From Irineochytrium annulatum (lineage: Eukaryota; Chytridiomycota; Chytridiomycetes; Chytridiales; Chytridiaceae): a DNA stretch of 34,032 nt. Positions 2,165-16,683 of this stretch are shown here, piece by piece. The notes below the pieces were generated by a model. That model had not been told where the DNA came from and did no database searches. It saw only the letters and a list, made by a program, of their open reading frames with translations. Location of the stretch: assembly GCA_027600665.1 (NCBI GenBank), contig JADGJL010000188.1, positions 1 through 34,032 on the forward strand, in the 5' to 3' direction. Both the position numbers and the translations under genes were made by a program. The stretch's first letter is position 1; each line of letters opens with the position of its first letter.

Positions 2165-2869
2165 TCACTTCCTGTAGCCGTATCCGTAGTCAGAGGCCGT
2201 CACGCACGGGCTCTGGTGGTACTGCAGCCAAGGGTCGATGCTGCACTCGGTGCCGGCCGCGCACCTCATCTCGACCCACTTGCCATGGTCGCACTGGTAG
2301 AAGACAGAGCTCTCGCCGGACTCGTCGCACTTGTAATTTTGTCCCTTCCACGAGCCGGCGGAGGTCGAGCAGTCACCCTCGTTGCCGTAGGATGGCGTGT
2401 AGCTGGGCTTTGAGGGAGTGTAGCTCGGCTTCGAGGGCGTGTAGCTAGGCTTCAAGGGAGTGTAGCTCGGCGTGTAGCTCGGCTTGGCGGGCGTGTACGA
2501 GGGCTTTGAAGGAGTGTAGGACGGCTTCGGGGGCGTGTACGTGGGAGTGTAAGCGGGCTTCTTCGGGCCGTAAGCCGGCGGCTCCGGCGCGTATCCGCCG
2601 TGCGAAGGGTGGTAGTCGGCCACGCACGGGCTTTGGCGGTACTGGAGCCACGGCTCGACATCGCAGACGGTGCCGGCAGCGCACGGCATGCGGACCCACT
2701 TGCCATGGTCGCACTGGTAGAAGACGGTGACGTCGCCGGTCGCGTCGCACTTGTAGTTCTGGCCATGGAAGGAGCCACTAGACGTCGAGCAGTCGGGCTC
2801 GTAGGAGTACGACTCTGCGACGGCGACGGCCGAGATGGAGGCGACGGCAAGGAGGGTCGAGAAAAGCAT
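2165..2869 (-). CDS. Secreted protein with two CBM19-like chitin-binding-type domains (copy 2)
   Basis: Tandem, same-strand duplicate of the gene at 484-1188: 234 residues with the same signal peptide, two six-cysteine domains and Tyr-Pro-rich linker. By eye about 14 of 705 coding bases differ, giving five residue changes (Q to H and S to T in the first domain, N to S in the linker, E to D and D to Y near the C-terminus). The protein has no membrane anchor or enzyme domain, so it is probably a wall-associated lectin-like or chitin-shielding protein; this is an inference from domain type. Downstream sequence diverges at once beyond the stop codon, while upstream similarity continues, weaker, for about 150 bases. 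Confidence 0.8.
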   Translation of the reverse strand: MLFSTLLAVASISAVAVAESYSYEPDCSTSSGSFHGQNYKCDATGDVTVFYQCDHGKWVRMPCAAGTVCDVEPWLQYRQSPCVADYHPSHGGYAPEPPAYGPKKPAYTPTYTPPKPSYTPSKPSYTPAKPSYTPSYTPLKPSYTPSKPSYTPSKPSYTPSYGNEGDCSTSAGSWKGQNYKCDESGESSVFYQCDHGKWVEMRCAAGTECSIDPWLQYHQSPCVTASDYGYGYRK

Positions 2870-2922
2870 TATTGAGATGTAGGCCGTTGGTGTTGATGAT
2901 GATTCGGAGAGTCCAGATAGTG

Positions 2923-2930
2923 TTTAAATA
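2923..2930 (-). promoter_or_regulatory. TATA-like box of copy 2
   Basis: Minus-strand TATTTAAA about 54 bases upstream of the ATG at 2869, at the same relative place as the box of copy 1. Confidence 0.45.
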
Positions 2931-5299: not shown

Positions 5300-5566
5300 C
5301 CCCCCGAGTACGCCGCAGCCATTGGGACCGCAGCCTCAACTCCTCTCCCGACATCGCCGAGGCAGCTAGTCCCGACCACCACCCCGACCGCGAAGGAACT
5401 CCGCCAGCTCTCGCTCCAGTCCCACCACCGGCCGACCACCCCGGCGCGGACGGTCATCTTCTACGACAGCCCGACCTACAGCCCGACCTCACCAACCACC
5501 CCTGCCCTTACCCGGGATTTAACCCCCTCCCCCGCCGCCAAGATTCCCTCCTCGCCCTCCTCCAAG

Positions 5567-7300
5567 ATGCCTTGGAACCCGGTTCCGAGGGTGACGCTCA
5601 ACTTCGTCGGCTTCCCCGGCGCCCCCAACTCGCACGGCCACGAGGCACCTTCCCGTAAGGTCATGGCCGAGCTCCCCGACCCCATGTCTAAGAGCTCCCG
5701 AATCCTGACGGTCCACGACCTCGTCATCCTGGCCAAGAGGGACTACCTGCACGACGACGCCGGCATCGACCCCAGCAGGGCCACCGTCTACACGTCCGAG
5801 TTTGCCGCCATCCCGAGGCACTCGAGCGTCGGGCTCCTCAGGGATGGGGAGAGCCTCGTCGTAGCGTTCTTTGGCGGGCCGTTGGACAAGCACAAGGATA
5901 AGGGGGACAAGCATAAGGAAAAGAGGTACGACGACAAGGAGGTGCGCGGGGACCGCGACCGCGAGCGTGAGAGCCACGGCGGCCACAGGAGCGATCGCGA
6001 CAGGGATGGCGACAGAGACCGCGATCACGACCGCCACGGGCGTGGGGGCGATCGCGATCGCGACCGCGACGATAGGGATGGACGCGACCACCGCGAGAGG
6101 GACGGCGGGCGTGGGGATCGCGACAGGGACGGCAGGGGTGACCGCGACCGTGACGACAGGGTTGACCGCAAAGATAAGGAGCGCGGGCGCGACCACGATG
6201 ACGTGCGAGGCAGGGACAAGGACGACCGTCACGGGGAGAAGGACCGCCACTCGTCGTCCCACGGACACTCCCACCACTCGCACCACCGGCACTCCACCTC
6301 GGGCCGCGACGGCAGCAGGAGCCCGGACAAGGACCACCGATCCTCCGACCGGTACGGGGACGATAGCCACCACGGCCACGGTCATGGTTCTTCCTCGCCC
6401 AAGAAGGACAAGCACAGCGCCGATGACTCCTACACCGCCCTCGACGACGACCGCAGCCCGCGCAGCCGCGGCGTCTCTTCCGGTCACGGGCACGGTCACG
6501 ACCGCGACAGGAACATCGACTGGTCTAGCAGCGAGGACGTCCGCTCGGGCGGGTCGCCCCTGAAGGACTCGAAGAAGTACGACTACGTCTACGCCTCGGA
6601 CGAGTTCCTCAACAACACCGGGTCCAAGTCCAAGGACTCGGGGCATCACCGGTCATCGTCCAGCCAGGCCCGCCACGGGTCCGCTGACGACTACGAGTAC
6701 AAGGCCCCCGCGTCCGGTCGCGAGCGTGAGAAGAGCCTCGTTGACACTCGTGGCGACAGGGAGCGCGGCGATAGGAGGGAGAGGTCGCGCAGCCGCGAGA
6801 GGACCAGCAGGAGGGCGGAGAACGATGATGACGACTACAGGAGGGGAGGATCCTCGAGCTTCAAGGAGATGGGTTACCCGGACTACTTGAAGTCGAAGGG
6901 GTCGTCCGAGTCGCCGAGGGCCAAGAGCTCGCATTCGAGGGAGGCTAGTGTTAGCAGACATGATAGGAGCGGGGACGGTAAGCGTCTTTAAGTTACTACT
7001 CAACTTTCGCAGTTAGGATTTCTGCTAACAATACTATTATAACGGCAGACTTCATGACCAAGCCTGAGCTGAGGCGGGCTTCGAGCGCCGGTGGGTCTTC
7101 TCCCTCCCCGCGGAAGATGTCCTCCGTCGGCGACACCTCCAGGCCGGACAAGTTGATCCCCCCCGGGCTGAAGATTCCCGAGAGCAGCACCAGGGCCCGC
7201 TCGCCGTCCATGATTGGTTAGTGTTCGCTCTCTCATGTCCCGCAGCGTGTCCACTAATCGTGTTTATGTCGCAGGCCGCAGCCGGGACGCTGACTTTTGA
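5567..7300 (+). CDS. Protein with coilin-like ubiquitin-fold N-terminus and Arg/Asp-rich tail
   Basis: Three exons, 5567-6977, 7049-7216 and 7275-7300, giving 534 residues. The first 105 residues look folded: RVTLNFVGF, a helix-like ILTVHDLVILAKRDYL, then ATVYTSEFAAIP and LLRDGESLVVAFF. This strand-helix-strand pattern ending in an RDG/RDN turn matches what I recall of the coilin N-terminal ubiquitin-like domain. Residues from about 110 to 215 are almost pure Arg/Asp/Lys/Glu/His, then come His/Ser-rich and Arg/Ser segments (RSRSRERTSRRAE), typical of nuclear RNA-processing proteins. A short C-terminal part is Ser/Pro-rich. The frame is open without an ATG back to a stop at 5297-5299 and reads protein-like (TVIFYDSPTYSPTSP), so the true start may lie in an upstream exon. 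Function not established. Confidence 0.65.
5935..6240 (+). repeat. Degenerate GACCGCGAC-type repeat coding for Arg-Asp
   Basis: Dense run of hexamer-like units (GACCGC, GACAGG, GATCGC, GACAGA) inside the gene at 5567-7300. Codon variants change from unit to unit, so this is an old repeat kept for its protein product rather than a fresh microsatellite. The opposite strand gives long Ser/Arg-rich shadow frames. Confidence 0.75.
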
Positions 7301-8571: not shown

Positions 8572-11500
8572 ATGGTCCCGTCATCGTTGTCTCCCGTCTT
8601 GCTGGCCGCTATCCTCCCGTCGCTGGCGGCCGCGGCCGTCGCATCGGCATTGCCTATGAACAACATTGCCGGCATCACCGAGACACAAAGCTATGACGGA
8701 ACGTACAACAATGAGGGTAACCCTAACCTCGGCGCTGTTGGGTGCAACAATCTACGATATGTGAAGCCGGCGTATGGGCCTGACCAAGGTGTGTCCATCC
8801 GTGTCGATACTCCCGGATCACGGCTAACAGCTGCCTCCATGCCAGCCCCAAGTGGGTCCAACCGTCCGAGCGCTCGGTTGATCTCCGACCAGCTCTTCTC
8901 AAGGAAGCCGGAGCTCCAGAACCTCGAGGGCCTGACAGACTTCCTCCCTAGCTGGAGCATCGTTCTGCATTTTGACATCACGGACACAAATAAGAATGCC
9001 TGTAAGCCGAAATCGGTGTCCAAATATCTTTTTACATTGCTCACATTTTGTTTGTGGTTGCAGCGGAACCTTTTCCCATCTTGGTGCCGGCTACCGACGC
9101 CGTCTATGACCCCCTCGGGACGGGTAACGTCACTATCCCGATGACGCGGAATTCGTTCAACCCGCCCGCGAACCCGAGGGAGAACAACAGGGACATCCCG
9201 AACACGTTTTCGGCATATCTGGACGGCTCGGGCATTTACGGGTCGTCAATAGATGAGTCGGGCGCCATCCGCGCATTCAAGGGGGGTCTGCTCAAGAGCG
9301 TCACCGGGCCGTTTGGCGAGTTCCCGCCGTTTTTGCCAAATGGGTTTTATCAATTTGCGGTGGGAAAAGTTAATCTGAATGCGGTAGGACGTTGTCTTTA
9401 TTTGTGTCGACTAATCCCTGACTTCGAATTAGAACACGATGGCGCCGCATCTTATCCTGTTTAGAGAACACAACAGGCGAGCCAGGCTACTGGCTGAACG
9501 ACACCCGGATTGGTCCGATGAGATGATATTCCAACGCGCTCGGCGATGGCTCATCGCCGTCATCCAAAAAATTACGTTCAATCAGGTAACTTGGATTCTC
9601 ACTGCTGAATTGCATTCGCACTTACGTGGTTCTTGTATCCTCAGTACTTTCCCGCCCTCCTCGGCGTCCAAGCGGTCCCCTACAAAGGCTACAACCCCGC
9701 CATCGACCCCCGGATCGAGCTTTTCTTTTCGAACGTCGCCTTCCGCTACGGCCACAGCGCGCTCAACTCTGTCGTCCTCCGCCTCGACGAGATCGGGCAG
9801 GAGGTGCAGCAGGGTCATTTGCTTTTCAGGGATACGTTCTTCACGGGTATCATCAGCCAAGTGTCGGCCTATGGGCCGGACTCCATCATTAGGGGTCTCG
9901 CGGTGCATCGGGAACAGATCATTGACACGCAGTTCTCGGATGACATTAGGAACTTCTTACAGCCGCTTAACGGTGGCGCATTCTTTGATTTGCCGGCGGT
10001 TAACATACAAAGGTAGCGAGTTTGTCATGCTGTCGGTTTCTCATCATGTCGTTACCATAGGGGTCGTGACCTCGGTTTCGCTGACTATAACACACATCGG
10101 AGGGCTTTCAATATGACGCCGGCGAAAAAGTGGAGTGACATTACCGCGGACGTGAGCGTTCAAGCGATCTTGGCTGACCTGTACAAGAATGACATCAACA
10201 ACGTGGACCCGATCGTTGGTAAGTGATGAAGGCGTTGCGTGGAAGTGATGTCTGACGTAAAATCAAGCCTGCTTCGCTGAAGATCACATCGATGAAAACA
10301 GCTCCATGGGTCCCATGATGACCGCCTCCATTATGGAACAGTTTTACCGCATACGCGATGGAGATAGGTTTTGGTACGAGCGAGCCGGCGTCCTCTCGGA
10401 CCAGGAGGTGGCCGATCTCGCCAACGTCACGCTCGGCAGGATTGTGATGGCGAACACGAACATCACGGGCTTCCCCGATAACCCGTTTACAAGGAGCGGT
10501 TACTTATTGCCCGGGTCCGCGTCATCGTCGTCGTCGTCGTCCGCCGCAAGCGGCAGCGCGGGGAAGTCATCCGTTGAAGCTCTGGGCATGCTGCGGTTGT
10601 CGTGGACGATCCGACCGGACGCCGGGATGATTGATTTTATGTATGAGAGCAACTCGACCGGGTGGTTCGGGTTTGGGTTGGGTCCGGATATGTTCTCTGC
10701 GGACATTTACTTTGTGTCGCAGCAAAGTAATGGGATGTTCTCGGTTCAGGACTCGTGGAGGTAGGAACCTCAACCTGCATTGATTTGGCAGCGCTCTAAC
10801 GCTATCGCTTCCACAGCACCAACACCGTGCCGCCCGTCAGCGATCTCAGTCAAGGTGGAAAGGACAACATCATCAACGCTATGGACATAACCTCCACCCA
10901 AAGATTCTCCAAACGCGTCGTCTCCTTTACGCGCCCGCTCTCGACGGGCGACTCGAACGACGTCGTCATCGCCGCCGGCCAGACTGGCGTCATCTTCGCC
11001 TACTCCAACACCAACGAACTCGTCTGGCACGGCCCGACAAACCGCGTCGCGAGCTCGCTCGACTTCTTCGGCTCCGGCGCGCTGGTCATCGAGGCGAGCT
11101 CGGAGAATAGCTCCCTCGATTTAAAGGTCCTCCATGGCACGACAATGTACTTTGCCTTTGCGTTCCTGTACCCGTTCGCTATTTTTATCGCGAGGTATCA
11201 TCAAGGGATGAGCAAGTGGCTCCAGATACATATGGCGCTAATGACGACGGTCACTTCGAACGTGAGTCGATTAATTCTTTCCCATCACTTGTCCGTGCTA
11301 AAAAGGCGCTATCTGGCTCCACAGGTCCTCATCACGGCGTTGACAGCCATCGTCGGCACCTACGGCACCACGAACTTCACCCACTGCCGCGTCGGCTACA
11401 TCATCGTCATCCTCGTGACATCGACGTCGCTCCTCGGGTACGCCACCCTGAAGAGCGAGTACAAGTGGATCCAGAGGCACTCCAGGATGCTGCGCCTGAT

Positions 11501-13587
11501 CCACAGGATTACGGGCTTCTTCGCCTACTTCCTAGGTATCGCGAACGGGTACCTCGGCGCGTGCGACCTAGACATTGGGATGCTATACGGGGTCTCCGTG
11601 CCGACGGCATACCTGATTACTGTTCTGCTCTTCCCCGTGCTTTTGATCGCTTATGGGGAGTCATCTTCGAGGATGCAGAGGAACAAGAAGAGTAAGGCCA
11701 AGGGCGAGGATCCGAACACGTCGTCGTTACCAGTATTCTTGTGGGAGGACATCAATCAGAGGGTCTCCCTTGGGGCTAAGTGGATCGTCATCCAAGGAAT
11801 TATTTGTAAGCAAATTATAGCAATTATTCGCTGACGCACCTTCTTCAGATGACGTCCAGTCTATAATCGTAAAGCATCCCGGAGGACCGTCGCCAATCCT
11901 CCGGACGATCGGCCTGGACGCGACAAAGTACTTCAACGGCGCCATCCTGAAGCGAAACCAACCCTTCTTGAAAGGCGCGATCAGCAGCCGCCGGTCGTTT
12001 ACCGGGCCATCGCAGCCCGACGGGGACGTCGACATCGCCTCGTTTGCTCACGGCCACTCGCGGTTCGCTCGATACATTCTCTCCACATTGGCCGTTGGTC
12101 GGCTAAACGATGACGACGACGACGACGAGCAGTCGCAGCTCCTGCTCGGCTATAACCTAGACGGGTCGGAAAAGGCGCTAGTTGGGACAGCAAAGGCGAA
12201 TAAGAAGAACGACGAGGAGAGCCACAAGGGCGTGTGGAAGAGGCCGCCGATGATCACGGAGCGATTCAGAAACTTCGTCCTAGAGTCCAAATCCTTAATC
12301 TCGCGCCCGGGTGCCAAGAACGCGGTTTACCGGCTTCGCTTCAAATTTGAGCGACCGGACGCGAGCCTGGTAGTGAAACCTGGGGAGTCGGTGCTGTTCC
12401 AATTAGTGGACAACAGTGGGAAGGTCGTCACGCGGTCGTACACGCCAATTAACTGCGTCAACACGGGCGGGATGGACTTTATTGTGAAGATGTGCAATGG
12501 GGAGATGACGAACTTTTTGTTGAAATGCAAGAACGTCAGAATTCGCGGTCCCATCCCGAGCTCGAACTTACTTAACCCTTACTCCGACAATGGGTGTTGG
12601 AGCCAGCTGGGTCTCATTGCCGGTGGCTCTGGTGAGGAACGCTCGTTGTTAAGCGCAAGATCTAATGTTATTCTGGAATGCAGGCCTTACACCGATGTTG
12701 TTAATTATGGATTATTATCTGAAGAATGGTCAAAGAGACCCAGTGACGAACCGACCATCCTATCGAATTCACTTATTGGTGTTGAACTCGACCGAGAACG
12801 ACTTTTTTGCGCTGGATCAGATATCGGAGATGGAGGCCGCCAGTCAAGGGGCGATTGTTGTCAACTACCTAATATCCTCCGCGCCGGCCGCTGGTAGTGA
12901 TTACGCGGGGCTCGTCGGTAAACTTGACGCCGAGATGATTGTCGCGACCATGCCGCGGCCGCCGACAGGCTCGAGGGAAAAGAGGGCCTTTTGGAACCCG
13001 ACGTCGGCCGCACAGATGAACACGTACGCCAGGCGACTGGGCGGGGTGAAGGCGACGTCGGTGATAAGCGACCTTGGAGGTATAATGAACGCGTTTACCC
13101 GCAATGCTTAACGGAACCTACAGGGTTCGACGGTCCATCCATTCTGACGTCCCGACCGTCGCTCAGCCGCGAGATTATTATGCCCGACCCCGCGTCCCGT
13201 TATCAATCGGGGAACAGTGGCATGTCGGAAAGCGCGTCGCTGCCCCTTCTACGACGGGTTAGCCTCGACGACCGAAAGTACAGCAACACGGGTCCTCTGT
13301 CTGCATCCCGGAGGCTTCATGGCGATCTCATTGAGAGCGGGAACTCAGGTGAATTTGATGAGCAAGGGCAGACTGCCGACGCGGGTGGTAATACCCCGAT
13401 GCTTGGGGAAGAAAAGGACGCGTCGGACAGCATGGCGGTTGTCGTTTGCGGGTGAGCAATGATTGGCTTGGCTTTCACCAATCGGCTTGTGCTGACTTGT
13501 GTTTGTAGGCCTACGGTGATGAACATTGCTATCGGAGATCTTCTCAGGAGTATGGGTTATCCGTCCGACATTATTTACACGTTGTAA
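8572..13587 (+). CDS. Heme peroxidase-DOMON-cytochrome b561-cytochrome b5-flavoreductase fusion (DUOX-like layout)
   Basis: Exons 8572-9001, 9064-9383, 9433-9585, 9645-10012, 10061-10218, 10268-10760, 10817-11261, 11325-11805, 11849-12631, 12684-13079, 13124-13451 and 13509-13587 join in phase into 1477 residues. An in-frame 57-base GT...CTAAC...CAG stretch (8789-8845) is probably a further intron; removing it gives 1458 residues. Signal peptide 1-27. Animal-type heme peroxidase about 35-555: YDGTYNNEGNP, YLDGSGIYGSS, FREHNR (R261), AFRYGH (proximal H338), NIQRGRDLGFADYN, FYRIRDGDRFWYE; the wording is closer to DUOX than to myeloperoxidase. DOMON about 575-735 with likely heme ligands M618 and H712. 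Cytochrome b561 about 745-900 with five helices and four histidines (H747, H779, H809, H849). Cytochrome b5 about 925-1035: HPGG (H959) and GHS (H1019). Cytochrome-b5-reductase-type FAD/NAD(P)H module about 1090-1477: RSYTPIN, LIAGGSGLTPML, VVVCGPTVM. Expected flow: cytosolic NAD(P)H to FAD, b5, b561 hemes, then outside. The product (superoxide, hydrogen peroxide or a reduced substrate) cannot be read from sequence. Confidence 0.88.
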
Positions 13588-13727
13588 AGAGTTCGAGCTT
13601 TTTCATACAACTTAAAGGCAGATCATATTAGCGCGATAGAAGCTAATGGCAGATATTCCTTAACGTTAATTATTAAATACGTCGCATGCAAAAGAGTTGA
13701 CACCACGCGACCATCGTCACCACCAAG

Positions 13728-15268
13728 ATGTGGGGATCTCCTCGCAGGACCACGCCAGCGCCGCCACCAACGCCTCATCCCGAGCCCGAGGACGACTCCG
13801 GCCTAAACGGTCATTACCCTCAAAGCGACTTCGTCCCGCATGCGTCCGACGCCGCCTCATCAGATCCCTTCACCTCCTCCCCTTCGCACGACGCTTCATC
13901 ATCATCGCCATCCAACGCTATCGCAGACCCCTCCCAATCCCCGCCCGTCCTGGCCTCTCTCTTCCCGAAGCTCTACCAGCCACCCGTGAAGCGGATATGG
14001 CGTTTCTCCTCCTTGCTTGTCGGCATCCAGCTGGCCTATGACGGCTCCGTGCGCGCATTCCACTCGGCCAAGTCCCGTAGGTTCCTGCTGATGGCGCTGG
14101 GATACGTGCTCGCGATCACGGTCACGCTCTTGGCGCTGGGCTACGCCTTGACGACGCCCATGAGGCTGTTTCGGCGGTTCCTTGGCGGGGAGGGGACATT
14201 GAAGTTTTTGGACTCCATCATCTCGGCGGCGGATGCGGTGGTGTTGTGGTGGGTATCGTAGACTGTTTTGCAAGGGGATACTTTCCTTTGTAGCGTCAGC
14301 TGTATGCTAATGACCCCTCCACAGGTTCCTCGTGATGATGCCGAACGCGGGCTTCTATTTTATTCGATATATTTATCCTGAACCTCTTGATCGCGTTTTC
14401 TTCGAAGCATTAAAGTCGCTAACAAACGAGATCGGTCTGCCGGGAGGGCGGGCGAGATTCTCGTTACGGTTTGCGCGGTCGTTGGAGAACTCCCCGGGCG
14501 GCCGGCGAACCTACTATCTGCGGCTAGTCTCATACCTGAAGCGATACGCCAAGCGCCTCTCTATAGTTGCCATCGTCTTCGTCGCGAGCAAAATCCCAAT
14601 ATTTGGCCGCCTTGTAAGCGTTTTCACATCTTTGGCAAGACGGACGGTGGTTTAATAGTCCCCTTCACCACAGGCCTGGCCGCTTGCGACGTTCGCCTAC
14701 TTGGGCTACCACATTGGATGGACGCCTGCTATGTACATTTGTGGTGTTTCTATAATTTCTCCTCCTATCGGCAAGTTTGTGCGAGGCTCGATGCTAAAGC
14801 TACTGCTTGCGTTCCGAGCACTCGGTCGCGAGTTGGTGGAGCCATACATTTGCAGGTCGAAAATGGACTCCACGCAGGTTTGTTGTTTGAGTTTATTTAG
14901 ATTATCGCCTCGGGGCTAACTGGAGTCATGAACAGAAGCGGCAATGGTTTCACCAGAACGAACCCGTCATCGCCGGCTTCACCCTCCCCTTCTTTCTCCT
15001 CCTGCAAGTTCCCGTGGTGGGACCCGCCCTCTTCTTCGGCCTCTCTCAAGCCGCCGCCTCCCGCCTCTGCCTCGAGGCTTTCAGTGACCTGGACCTCAAC
15101 TCCGGTGGGCCAAAGAGTTCCGCCACGGTGCCGAAAGCGTCCGAGGGTTGGACCCTTGGGACTCCTAACGCGGCGCTTGAGCAGGTCGCTTCTTACCTGG
15201 ACGGTCTATTAGATAAAGTGAGAGCACTTTTAAAGCCCTTTTCTATCAGTAGCAGTAGACAACGCTAG
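13728..15268 (+). CDS. EI24-like multi-pass membrane protein (paralogue 1)
   Basis: Exons 13728-14248, 14325-14613, 14674-14877 and 14936-15268 give 448 residues. A Pro/Ser-rich disordered head of about 80 residues precedes several hydrophobic segments (RFLLMALGYVLAITVTLLAL, VLWFLVMMPNAGFYFIRYI, SIVAIVFVASKIPIF, FTLPFFLLLQVPVVGPALFF). Between the third and fourth lies ELVEPYICRSKMD, then a charged tail. The pattern, with paired hairpin helices and a VPVVGP motif before the last one, resembles the EI24/CysZ-like family, which in fungi includes Rrt8 and LDS-type lipid-droplet or spore-wall proteins and UsgS-like proteins; assignment is by memory. The first donor is GTGGGT; a GTATCG four bases downstream would break the frame. 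The next gene, 90 bases downstream, is a paralogue. Confidence 0.7.
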
Positions 15269-15357: not shown

Positions 15358-16683
15358 ATGTCGAGCCTCCTCTCGACCGCCGTCGTGTTGGTCCTCCTCT
15401 TCCTCATCCTGAAGACGTCTAAGTGGACGCTGCCCGCCTTGATCAACGGCGTGCAGATCGCGCTGGACGAGACCAGGAACATTATGGCGAATGGGGCCCT
15501 GCGCAACCACCTGATCACCTCTTTCCTCTTCCTGATGGTACGTCATCCCGCTCGTTAATGGCGCTATGCACCGTGTCTAACGATGATCAATCAACCTGCA
15601 TGGGCAGTGTGAATCGTTCACCTTGGTAGCATTAACCTACGCGGTCACGCTTCCCTTCAAGCTGTTGAAGCATGCCGGGATCGGAGCCTTGGACCCGCTG
15701 GTGTCAGCGATTGACTCGTTTGCCGCCTTGTAAGATCATCGCCCTTCGTTCTTCGTTTCGGTTCCGTCACCTTCCCACAGGTGCACGCGGCTCCTATAAC
15801 GCCACGTTAACATGTCGCTCCAGCTTCATAATCAGCACGCCGAACGCCGGCCTCTACTTTATTCGATACTTCTACCCTAAGCCCCTGGACCGCGTCTTCT
15901 TCGAGTCAATGACTGCCATTGCGAATGATCACAAGGGCCCGGCGTACAAGTTTGCCCGGTCCCTCGAGCACATCCCGGGCGAGCGGATGCAGTATCACGT
16001 CCGCATGGGCGCGTACCTGATGCGATACTCGCAGCGGCTGGCGATCCTCACGGCGGCAGCAACGCTCTCGCACATACCCGTCTTGGGCCTGTTTGTATGG
16101 CCGGTCGCGACATATATCTACCTCGGATTTCACATCGGATGGGCACCGGCGCTGTACATCGGTGGGGTATCGTTGTTGGTGCCGTCGTTCGGGAGCTTCG
16201 CGAGGAACACTCTGCTGACGACGCTGTTGGCGTTTCGTGGTCTGGCAAGAGAGCTGGTCGAGCCGTACACCTGCCGATCCGCTATGGACCTGAAACAGGT
16301 ACGGTTAATCTGTTTGGACGTTTAAGATGGCCTTATGCCTTCGTTAGGAGACGGATTGGTTTGAGAACAACGAGGGCGTCCTCGCGGGCTTCACCCTGCC
16401 GTTTTTTTGGCTGCTTAAGGTACCGATGATCGGTCCGGCTTTGTTCTGCATTTCCCAAGCGGCGGCTGCAAGGGTGTGCTACGAGCACTTCTCCGAGATC
16501 GACTTAGCGCCTGGAGCAGCGCGACGCATCGCACCAAAGCCAGCGCCGGTGTATGACCCGCAGTGGCTGCTGCAGTTCATTCCGGCAAAGACGCAAAAGG
16601 CGCTCAACACGTGGTTGAGGAAGAACGTTGATCGCAAGTTGGTATCGCAGTACGCTTGGATATTGAAAAAAAGGGGTCATTAG
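15358..16683 (+). CDS. EI24-like multi-pass membrane protein (paralogue 2)
   Basis: Exons 15358-15537, 15608-15729, 15824-16298 and 16348-16683 give 370 residues. It is clearly related to the gene just upstream: LYFIRYFYPKPLDRVFFE against FYFIRYIYPEPLDRVFFE, ELVEPYTCRSAMD against ELVEPYICRSKMD, and FTLPFFWLLKVPMIGPALF against FTLPFFLLLQVPVVGPALF. It lacks the Pro/Ser-rich head and starts with a hydrophobic segment, SSLLSTAVVLVLLFLILKTS, that could be an anchor or an exon of slightly different limits. The last exon ends in a basic tail (WILKKRGH), suggesting a cytosolic or lumenal soluble end. Two of three intron positions match the paralogue. The role is unknown; lipid-droplet or ER membranes are plausible from the family. 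Confidence 0.7.

Follow-up and report, generated by a model that had tools for sequence, protein, structure and literature searches.

A chytrid gene predicted to join an animal-type peroxidase to a DOMON-b561-b5-flavoreductase chain in a single protein

Introduction

The dual oxidases DUOX1 and DUOX2 combine an extracellular peroxidase homology domain with a heme-bearing membrane core and a cytosolic module that binds flavin adenine dinucleotide (FAD) and NAD(P)H. According to the excerpted reports, a ferric-reductase membrane core is shared throughout the NOX family, DUOX included (PMC9524095; DUOX clade, PMC9421330), and the peroxidase domain of human DUOX1 lacks heme-binding residues, displayed no heme and probably is not a functional peroxidase (PMC7794343). 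The plant CYBDOM proteins HYP1 and CRR are characterized by a DOMON domain with Met and His ligands and a cytochrome b561 core with four histidines. They are described as passing electrons outward from cytosolic ascorbate to ferric chelates, the reduction of which they promote, along a proposed path of three b hemes (PMC10784544, PMC10784552). When CRR was produced in yeast, which makes no ascorbate, the increase in ferric reductase activity reportedly depended on provision of an ascorbate precursor (PMC10784552). The subject of this study is a gene within a 34,032-nucleotide stretch of DNA (the window) from the chytrid Irineochytrium annulatum (Chytridiales) whose predicted product resembles both groups of proteins.

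The genome spans 26.9 Mb in 1082 contigs, one of which, C201, is the window. The protein encoded at positions 8572-13587 (+ strand) is predicted to carry, in one chain and in this order, a signal peptide, an animal-type peroxidase, a DOMON domain, cytochrome b561, cytochrome b5 and a b5-reductase-type FAD/NAD(P)H module. The DOMON ligand pair (Met599 and His693) and the four-histidine b561 core that typify CYBDOM proteins both are present. However, whereas the plant proteins draw on cytosolic ascorbate, the window protein has the b5 and FAD/NAD(P)H modules as well as the peroxidase fused within it, and the fused b5/flavin module suggests that the donor is other than ascorbate. As in DUOX, an animal peroxidase homology domain (PF03098, 3.4e-114) is located at the N-terminus, but the core comprises DOMON, b561 and b5 with a b5-reductase-type module instead of the NOX ferric-reductase core. 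In a Pfam search of the window protein at E<=0.1, neither the NOX core PF01794 nor FAD_binding_8 PF08022 nor any EF-hand family, a pair of which separates the peroxidase from the membrane core in DUOX, was listed, and NAD_binding_6 PF08030 reached E 0.028 (14.9 bits), under its cut-off of 22.2. Membership of DUOX was rejected as the NOX core and EF hands were not found by Pfam. A search of the genome for DUOXA (PF10204) gave no match, but controls likewise gave none and the result is hence uninformative. The initial annotation of the locus had depicted a DUOX-like machine in which b561 and b5 replace the NOX core: that the membrane core is not of NOX type is supported, and the analogy is fair as a description of arrangement. 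Thus, the window protein may work like DUOX in layout, but its predicted domains indicate that it is not a DUOX. In the sponge protein DspNOX, a NOX under calcium regulation, additional membrane regions have been assigned to DUF2427 or b561 (PMC9524095), which shows that NOX and b561-type parts have been combined on another occasion. Unlike the window protein, DspNOX keeps the NOX core, and the excerpted report does not mention peroxidase, DOMON or b5 for it (PMC9524095).

Results

Gene model and relatives

The coding region constitutes a single open frame of 1458 codons, assembled from 13 exons joined in phase, that begins with the ATG at 8572 and ends with the stop codon at 13587. The introns are of the GT-AG type throughout with lengths of 43-63 nt, and the two alternative frames of the spliced sequence each contain 56 stops. 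The acceptor of exon 7 was set to 10268 because the relatives carry the residues that thereby are added, whereas the least certain join, 13079/13124, is situated within a variable loop. A first model of 1453 residues, five shorter than the corrected version, was used in whole or in part for the relative search, the collinearity assessment, the solved-relative scores, the peroxidase alignment, the tree and the topology tests described below; the residues absent from it lie outside the columns of the peroxidase alignment that were read. The features of the corrected model are as follows.

8572-13587, + strand: whole coding region, 13 exons, 1458 residues; exon joins held against six relatives
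8572-8788, 8846-9001, 9064-9383, 9433-9585 and 9645-10012, + strand: exons 1-5
10061-10218, 10268-10760, 10817-11261 and 11325-11805, + strand: exons 6-9
11849-12631, 12684-13079, 13124-13451 and 13509-13587, + strand: exons 10-13
8572-8652, + strand: predicted signal peptide, residues 1-27 (approximate), with a hydrophobic stretch at 9-27 in a Kyte-Doolittle scan, the sole method applied
8686-10488, + strand: animal-type peroxidase (An_peroxidase PF03098), residues 39-531, extracellular by inference (Pfam 3.4e-114)
8959-8973, + strand: degenerate distal helix with Ile111, His114 and Phe115 (peroxidase alignment)
9753-9755, + strand: proximal heme His319, kept (peroxidase alignment)
10591-11003, + strand: DOMON (PF03351), residues 566-684 (Pfam 4.6e-15)
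10690-10692 and 11028-11030, + strand: putative DOMON ligands Met599 and His693, the latter just past the Pfam boundary, so that the feature is taken as 10591-11030
11130-11561, + strand: cytochrome b561 core, residues 727-849, with predicted heme ligands His728, His760, His790 and His830 (Pfam PF03188, 21.8 bits)
11742-12057, + strand: cytochrome b5 with His940 (in HPGG) and His1000 (in HSRFAR); Pfam Cyt-b5 at residues 910-963, 3.3e-11, second histidine by alignment
12322-12555, + strand: FAD-binding domain of b5-reductase type; FAD_binding_6 PF00970 at residues 1089-1166 (Pfam 1.6e-7), RSYTP at 1126-1130
12613-13587, + strand: NAD(P)H-binding domain; NAD_binding_1 PF00175 at residues 1186-1270 (1.9e-6), GGSG at 1189-1192 and CGP at 1432-1434 with a long loop between them

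A search of 5.8 billion proteins revealed six related proteins (P0001-P0006) with collinear order, 34-44% identity and coverage of 80-100% of the query; as the 7987 candidates with the most shared words were scored, six is a lower bound. The hosts are Blyttiomyces sp. JEL0837, Obelidium mucronatum, Chytriomyces sp. MP71, Entophlyctis sp. JEL0112, Siphonaria sp. JEL0065 and Blyttiomyces helicus, all of which belong to the Chytridiomycetes. Half of the six are named 'heme peroxidase' in public records and the other three 'hypothetical protein'. A second full copy of the architecture, with 1409 residues in 11 exons, is encoded at C893:4693-9506 (- strand) in the I. annulatum genome itself. The window protein and its six relatives (n=7) are referred to here as type B, and the C893 protein as type A. 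The proposal that in-phase exon joining yields one polypeptide was upheld by the single frame of 1458 codons, the six collinear relatives and the copy within the genome; the lack of any homologue with the same order, coupled with assembly breaks in the region, had been named as grounds for abandoning it, and these same proteins supply such homologues. A gene-joining artefact therefore was rejected, and the locus belongs to a conserved gene family.

Domains, ligands and membrane spans

Pfam returned the peroxidase, DOMON, b5, FAD and NAD domains in the order that the initial annotation had proposed, with b561 just below cut-off. The latter call is accepted because relatives exceed the cut-off of 23 bits (26.9 for P0002, 23.6 for P0007, which is the NCBI version of the C893 copy, and 23.7 for C348, a further locus in the genome) and because the four b561 heme histidines are present in all nine rows of an alignment of the type B proteins, C893 and C348. 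The same nine rows all contain both b5 histidines and the Arg and Tyr of the FAD motif. The b5 histidines of the window protein are 60 residues apart owing to an insert; P0006 has a spacing of 24, against 46-96 across the remaining eight rows. The three hallmarks of the NADH-cytochrome b5 reductase module, R-x-Y-T/S-P, GGxG and CGP, were found in the window protein, and CGP was evident in five of the nine rows, P0003-P0006 having no letters at this site. Accordingly, the DOMON Met/His pair, the four b561 histidines and the bis-His b5 of the initial annotation are in place, together with the motifs of the FAD/NAD(P)H module. The likeness to NADH-cytochrome b5 reductase and cytochrome b5 extends to the FAD and NAD modules and the HPGG motif, and the best solved relative of the FAD module by sequence is NADH-cytochrome b5 reductase 2eix (7.4e-12). 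However, the relatives of solved structure comprise stand-alone reductases, fragments of nitrate reductase and b5 domains, with no b561, DOMON or peroxidase.

Five membrane helices had been predicted. A hydrophobicity scan of the b561 region, with a threshold of 1.4 for a membrane span, detected four clear spans and a weaker fifth at residues 832-850, beside His830, which scored 1.29. Thus, four of the helices stand, the fifth falls below the threshold and a total of five is likely. As five spans place the two ends of the protein on opposite sides of the membrane, the peroxidase and DOMON domains are likely to be outside and the b5 and reductase domains inside, provided that the weak fifth helix is real.

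The peroxidase domain

Forty-five peroxidase domains were aligned: those of the window protein, its six relatives, C893, a nematode protein, 32 of the 80 bacterial loci retained from the prokaryote scan described below, the bacterial structure 8s6c, DdPoxA of Dictyostelium, mouse DUOX1 and lactoperoxidase. The columns read were those of the distal Gln, His and Arg and of the proximal His and Asn; in DdPoxA, the distal triad is reported as Gln97-His101-Arg233 and the proximal group as His325-Asn403-Arg406 (PMC5787809). Although the peroxidase domain is recognizable in the window protein, the distal active-site residues that peroxidase chemistry requires are absent, with Ile111 in place of Gln, Phe115 in place of the distal His and Lys226 in place of Arg. 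The distal His and Arg are missing in all seven type B proteins, and the Gln in all six that have a letter in this column (P0005 starts too late). By contrast, all five residues are kept in each of the 37 rows outside type B and DUOX1, C893 included, whereas mouse DUOX1 keeps solely the Arg. On the proximal side, the histidine persists in six of the seven type B proteins (His319 in the window protein; no letter in P0005), and the Asn is found in the window protein (Asn402) but in none of its six relatives. Where lactoperoxidase has the Asp of its heme ester, all seven type B proteins possess a histidine (His114 in the window protein); C893 has neither ester residue. The initial annotation had envisaged a working peroxidase fed by the electron chain, and for the window copy this does not accord with the loss of the distal Gln, His and Arg in it and its six relatives. 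Judged by these residues, the subfamily of the window protein appears to have given up classical peroxidase chemistry, and its sister copy C893 does not. The C893 protein, with its intact site, would fit the earlier proposal better, and type A may be a self-wired peroxidase.

Among proteins of solved structure, the peroxidase domain is nearest in sequence to bacterial 8s6c, the chain of which is named Lactoperoxidase, and to DdPoxA, with 281 bits for the bacterial and 228 for the Dictyostelium domain compared to 179 for mammalian lactoperoxidase and 176 for mouse DUOX1. Unlike the window protein, both 8s6c and DdPoxA keep the distal Gln, His and Arg (for DdPoxA, see also PMC5787809). In a tree of 47 peroxidase domains, type B formed one clade (100/96) and type B with C893 another (100/98). 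DUOX1 was positioned beside this fusion clade without support (89/67) and on a long branch; DdPoxA, C893 and P0006 also have long branches, and these placements are unsure. Approximately unbiased (AU) tests rejected neither a clade of animal sequences including DUOX1 (p 0.388) nor a clade of the chytrid fusions with bacteria (p 0.224). Close kinship with C36 and C37, the two stand-alone peroxidases of the I. annulatum genome, was rejected, as they are distant on the tree (inner branch 4.14). The description 'DUOX-like heme peroxidase' is not sustained as a statement of kinship, given the higher bacterial and Dictyostelium scores and the unsupported position beside DUOX1; on the sequence comparisons, 'DUOX-like' fits the layout and not the family. 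When prokaryote genomes were scanned using two peroxidase motifs, 347 related stretches were recovered, of which the best 80 showed 34-41% identity and the top loci 39-41%. No fusion was found among the best 80 of the 347, whose matches lie within query residues 2-591; a motif scan of this kind is blind to a core without a peroxidase.

Related loci in the genome

The NCBI version of the C893 copy (P0007, HK101_011036) is 99% identical to the C893 model and 33% identical to P0002 over 1318 aligned positions. It comprises 1837 residues and also includes an S1/P1 nuclease upstream, which probably is a merged neighboring gene. A search with the C893 protein matched only P0007 and a single peroxidase from a nematode and did not recover even the six relatives of the window protein, so that type A is not shown to be confined to I. 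annulatum. The electron chain also occurs without the peroxidase. At C348:50229-53566 (+ strand), a joined model of 994 residues contains b561, b5 and an FAD module, with an SH3 domain placed within the NAD region and a DOMON-like stretch discerned by eye alone. At C282 (1287-4680 of excerpt L137, - strand), DOMON, b561, b5, FAD with SH3, and NAD follow in order in separate frames, with DOMON (24.2 bits), b561 (19.4) and NAD (14.9) scoring under cut-off. Because the core is present without peroxidase at both loci, the electron chain stands on its own. The SH3 domain inside the NAD region at C348 and C282 is unexpected in a reductase. Two further loci, C283 and C612, have b561 above cut-off and a CDH-cytochrome match below it. 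C555 is a NOX-like gene with Ferric_reduct, FAD_binding_8 and NAD_binding_6. The possibility that the window protein substitutes for a missing NOX was rejected as C555 carries NOX-like modules; hence it probably is not such a stand-in.

Discussion

With moderate confidence, the window protein can be viewed as a CYBDOM-type reductase that spans the membrane, is driven by NAD(P)H and transfers one electron at a time, with its own b5/flavin input and a cap derived from a peroxidase. Cytosolic NAD(P)H would reduce the FAD of the C-terminal module, which would pass electrons to the bis-His b5 and thence to b561 at its inner heme. Transfer from there to the outer b561 heme would take the electron across the membrane, probably the plasma membrane, after which it would move to the extracellular Met/His DOMON heme and on to an extracellular acceptor. 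As a first guess by family, the acceptor would be ferric chelates, given their reduction by CYBDOM proteins of plants. In place of the cytosolic ascorbate used by other b561 proteins, electrons would be supplied by the fused b5 and flavin modules, and the type B peroxidase domain would serve either as a cap influencing assembly or the access of acceptors, or as a heme site of altered function. The single gene model, the order of the domains, the ligand residues, their conservation and the loss of the distal triad are direct observations, whereas heme loading, membrane topology and location, the direction of electron flow and the acceptor are inferred elements of this scheme.

Several observations weigh against it. 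The b561 match in the window protein (E 2.4e-4) is under the cut-off, as are those in P0004 (18.1) and P0006 (17.5), and Pfam listed no b561 for P0001, P0003 or P0005. With four membrane spans instead of five, the assignment of domains to the inside and outside would fail. Structure prediction for window positions 10800-11834 with full relatives was of low confidence (mean predicted local distance difference test score, pLDDT, 46.9) and nothing was drawn from it. The DOMON Met column is filled in seven of nine rows (gaps in P0006 and C348) and the His column in six (P0004 and C348 have gaps there and the C893 row is displaced by one column), and Pfam detected no DOMON in P0006 or C348. In plants, the DOMON heme could not be tested directly since ligand changes impaired localization, according to the excerpted account (PMC10784544). 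The Thr/Ser-Pro of the flavin motif and the first Gly of GGxG are found in seven of nine rows, the exceptions being P0003 and P0005, which have RSYW instead of RSYTP and EGIG or DGIG instead of GGxG, and in which Pfam recognized no NAD_binding_1. NAD(P)H input thus may be lost in two of the seven members of type B. P0005, from the Siphonaria sp. JEL0065 record flagged UNVERIFIED_CONTAM, lacks the beginning of the peroxidase. Furthermore, the observations are compatible with iron, oxygen or other acceptors alike.

An unlikely alternative is that the chain reduces outside oxygen to superoxide or hydrogen peroxide and that the fused peroxidase uses the product, as in a DUOX-like machine. The logic of the parts is the same as in DUOX, with an NAD(P)H dehydrogenase inside, a heme membrane core and a peroxidase outside, and the paralogue C893 keeps the distal Gln/His/Arg and proximal His/Asn. 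However, the missing distal triad throughout type B makes the usual use of peroxide improbable, the b561/DOMON proteins described in the excerpted literature reduce ferric chelates (PMC10784544, PMC10784552) and the genome carries its own NOX-like gene. Alternatively, the peroxidase domain could have turned into an electron-relay site in which His319 and His114 ligate the iron and the DOMON heme passes electrons to this terminal extracellular heme. The invariance of His114 in type B, at the heme-ester column, and of the proximal His in all six rows with a letter are in keeping with this arrangement. Nevertheless, the heme-ester Asp reaches the heme edge in lactoperoxidase, such that a shift of the helix would be needed, and the proximal Asn is lost in six of the seven rows; the relay is regarded as quite unlikely. 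Very unlikely is a transmembrane NAD(P)H peroxidase, in which electrons from DOMON would reduce compound I, so that external hydrogen peroxide would be removed through the consumption of NAD(P)H in the cytosol: the fusion of a peroxidase to a reducing chain and the intact site of C893 would suit this activity, but the window protein is devoid of the distal triad. Scarcely credible is a mistaken fusion of two or more adjacent genes in the model. The seemingly merged NCBI model of the C893 copy and its nuclease neighbor indicates that such errors occur in this genome, but the six relatives in other chytrids are annotated as single proteins, C893 is collinear and all joins in the window gene are in phase.

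The NAD(P)H-driven reductase of CYBDOM type remains the preferred interpretation. A broader evolutionary proposal is doubtful: chytrids might have evolved a single-chain, NOX-independent counterpart of the dual oxidases (NAD(P)H-b5-b561-DOMON-peroxidase) which then split into type A (C893), the intact peroxidase of which the cytosol would directly power or reduce, and type B, which would have lost distal catalysis and acquired an invariant His at the position of the ester Asp, so that the domain became a terminal electron-transfer or acceptor-binding site.

No description of such a fusion was found in the titles and abstract openings of the literature matches from a search of limited extent. 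DOMON is noted to be fused often to other redox domains, including FAD/NAD-binding oxidoreductases (PMC10784552, citing older work), a remark in the excerpted text which implies that parts of the architecture may have been cataloged before. Three points are the most surprising: these domains occur together at all, one subfamily has lost the peroxidase active site although an intact sister exists in the same genome, and a b561 core has an NAD(P)H input fused to it. The architecture suggests a second route to a DUOX-type arrangement, with an outside peroxidase on an NAD(P)H-driven membrane wire built from b561 instead of NOX parts, as well as an ascorbate-free electron feed for a b561 core through the fused b5 and flavin module. 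In one lineage the peroxidase domain has been stripped of catalytic residues, in parallel with human DUOX1. The retention of inactive-looking peroxidase domains is testable within one genome, as it contains the intact sister C893 and the domain-less C348 and C282. The electron chain has been hidden in public records because the relatives are named only 'heme peroxidase' or 'hypothetical protein'.

Other genes in the window

Downstream of the fusion gene, the adjacent genes 13701-14655 and 15669-16325 (+ strand) have related frames with the common motif NAG-YFIRY-YP-PLDRVFFE; three pieces tested from these genes gave no match in Pfam. A long frame at 5300-6991 (+ strand) is very rich in Arg, Asp, His and Ser and had no Pfam match. 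Two very similar adjacent frames at 484-1254 and 2165-2923 (- strand) appear secreted and contain repeats rich in Tyr, Pro, Ser and Lys, and the 484-1254 frame possesses the chitin-binding domains CBM_19 and CBM_14.

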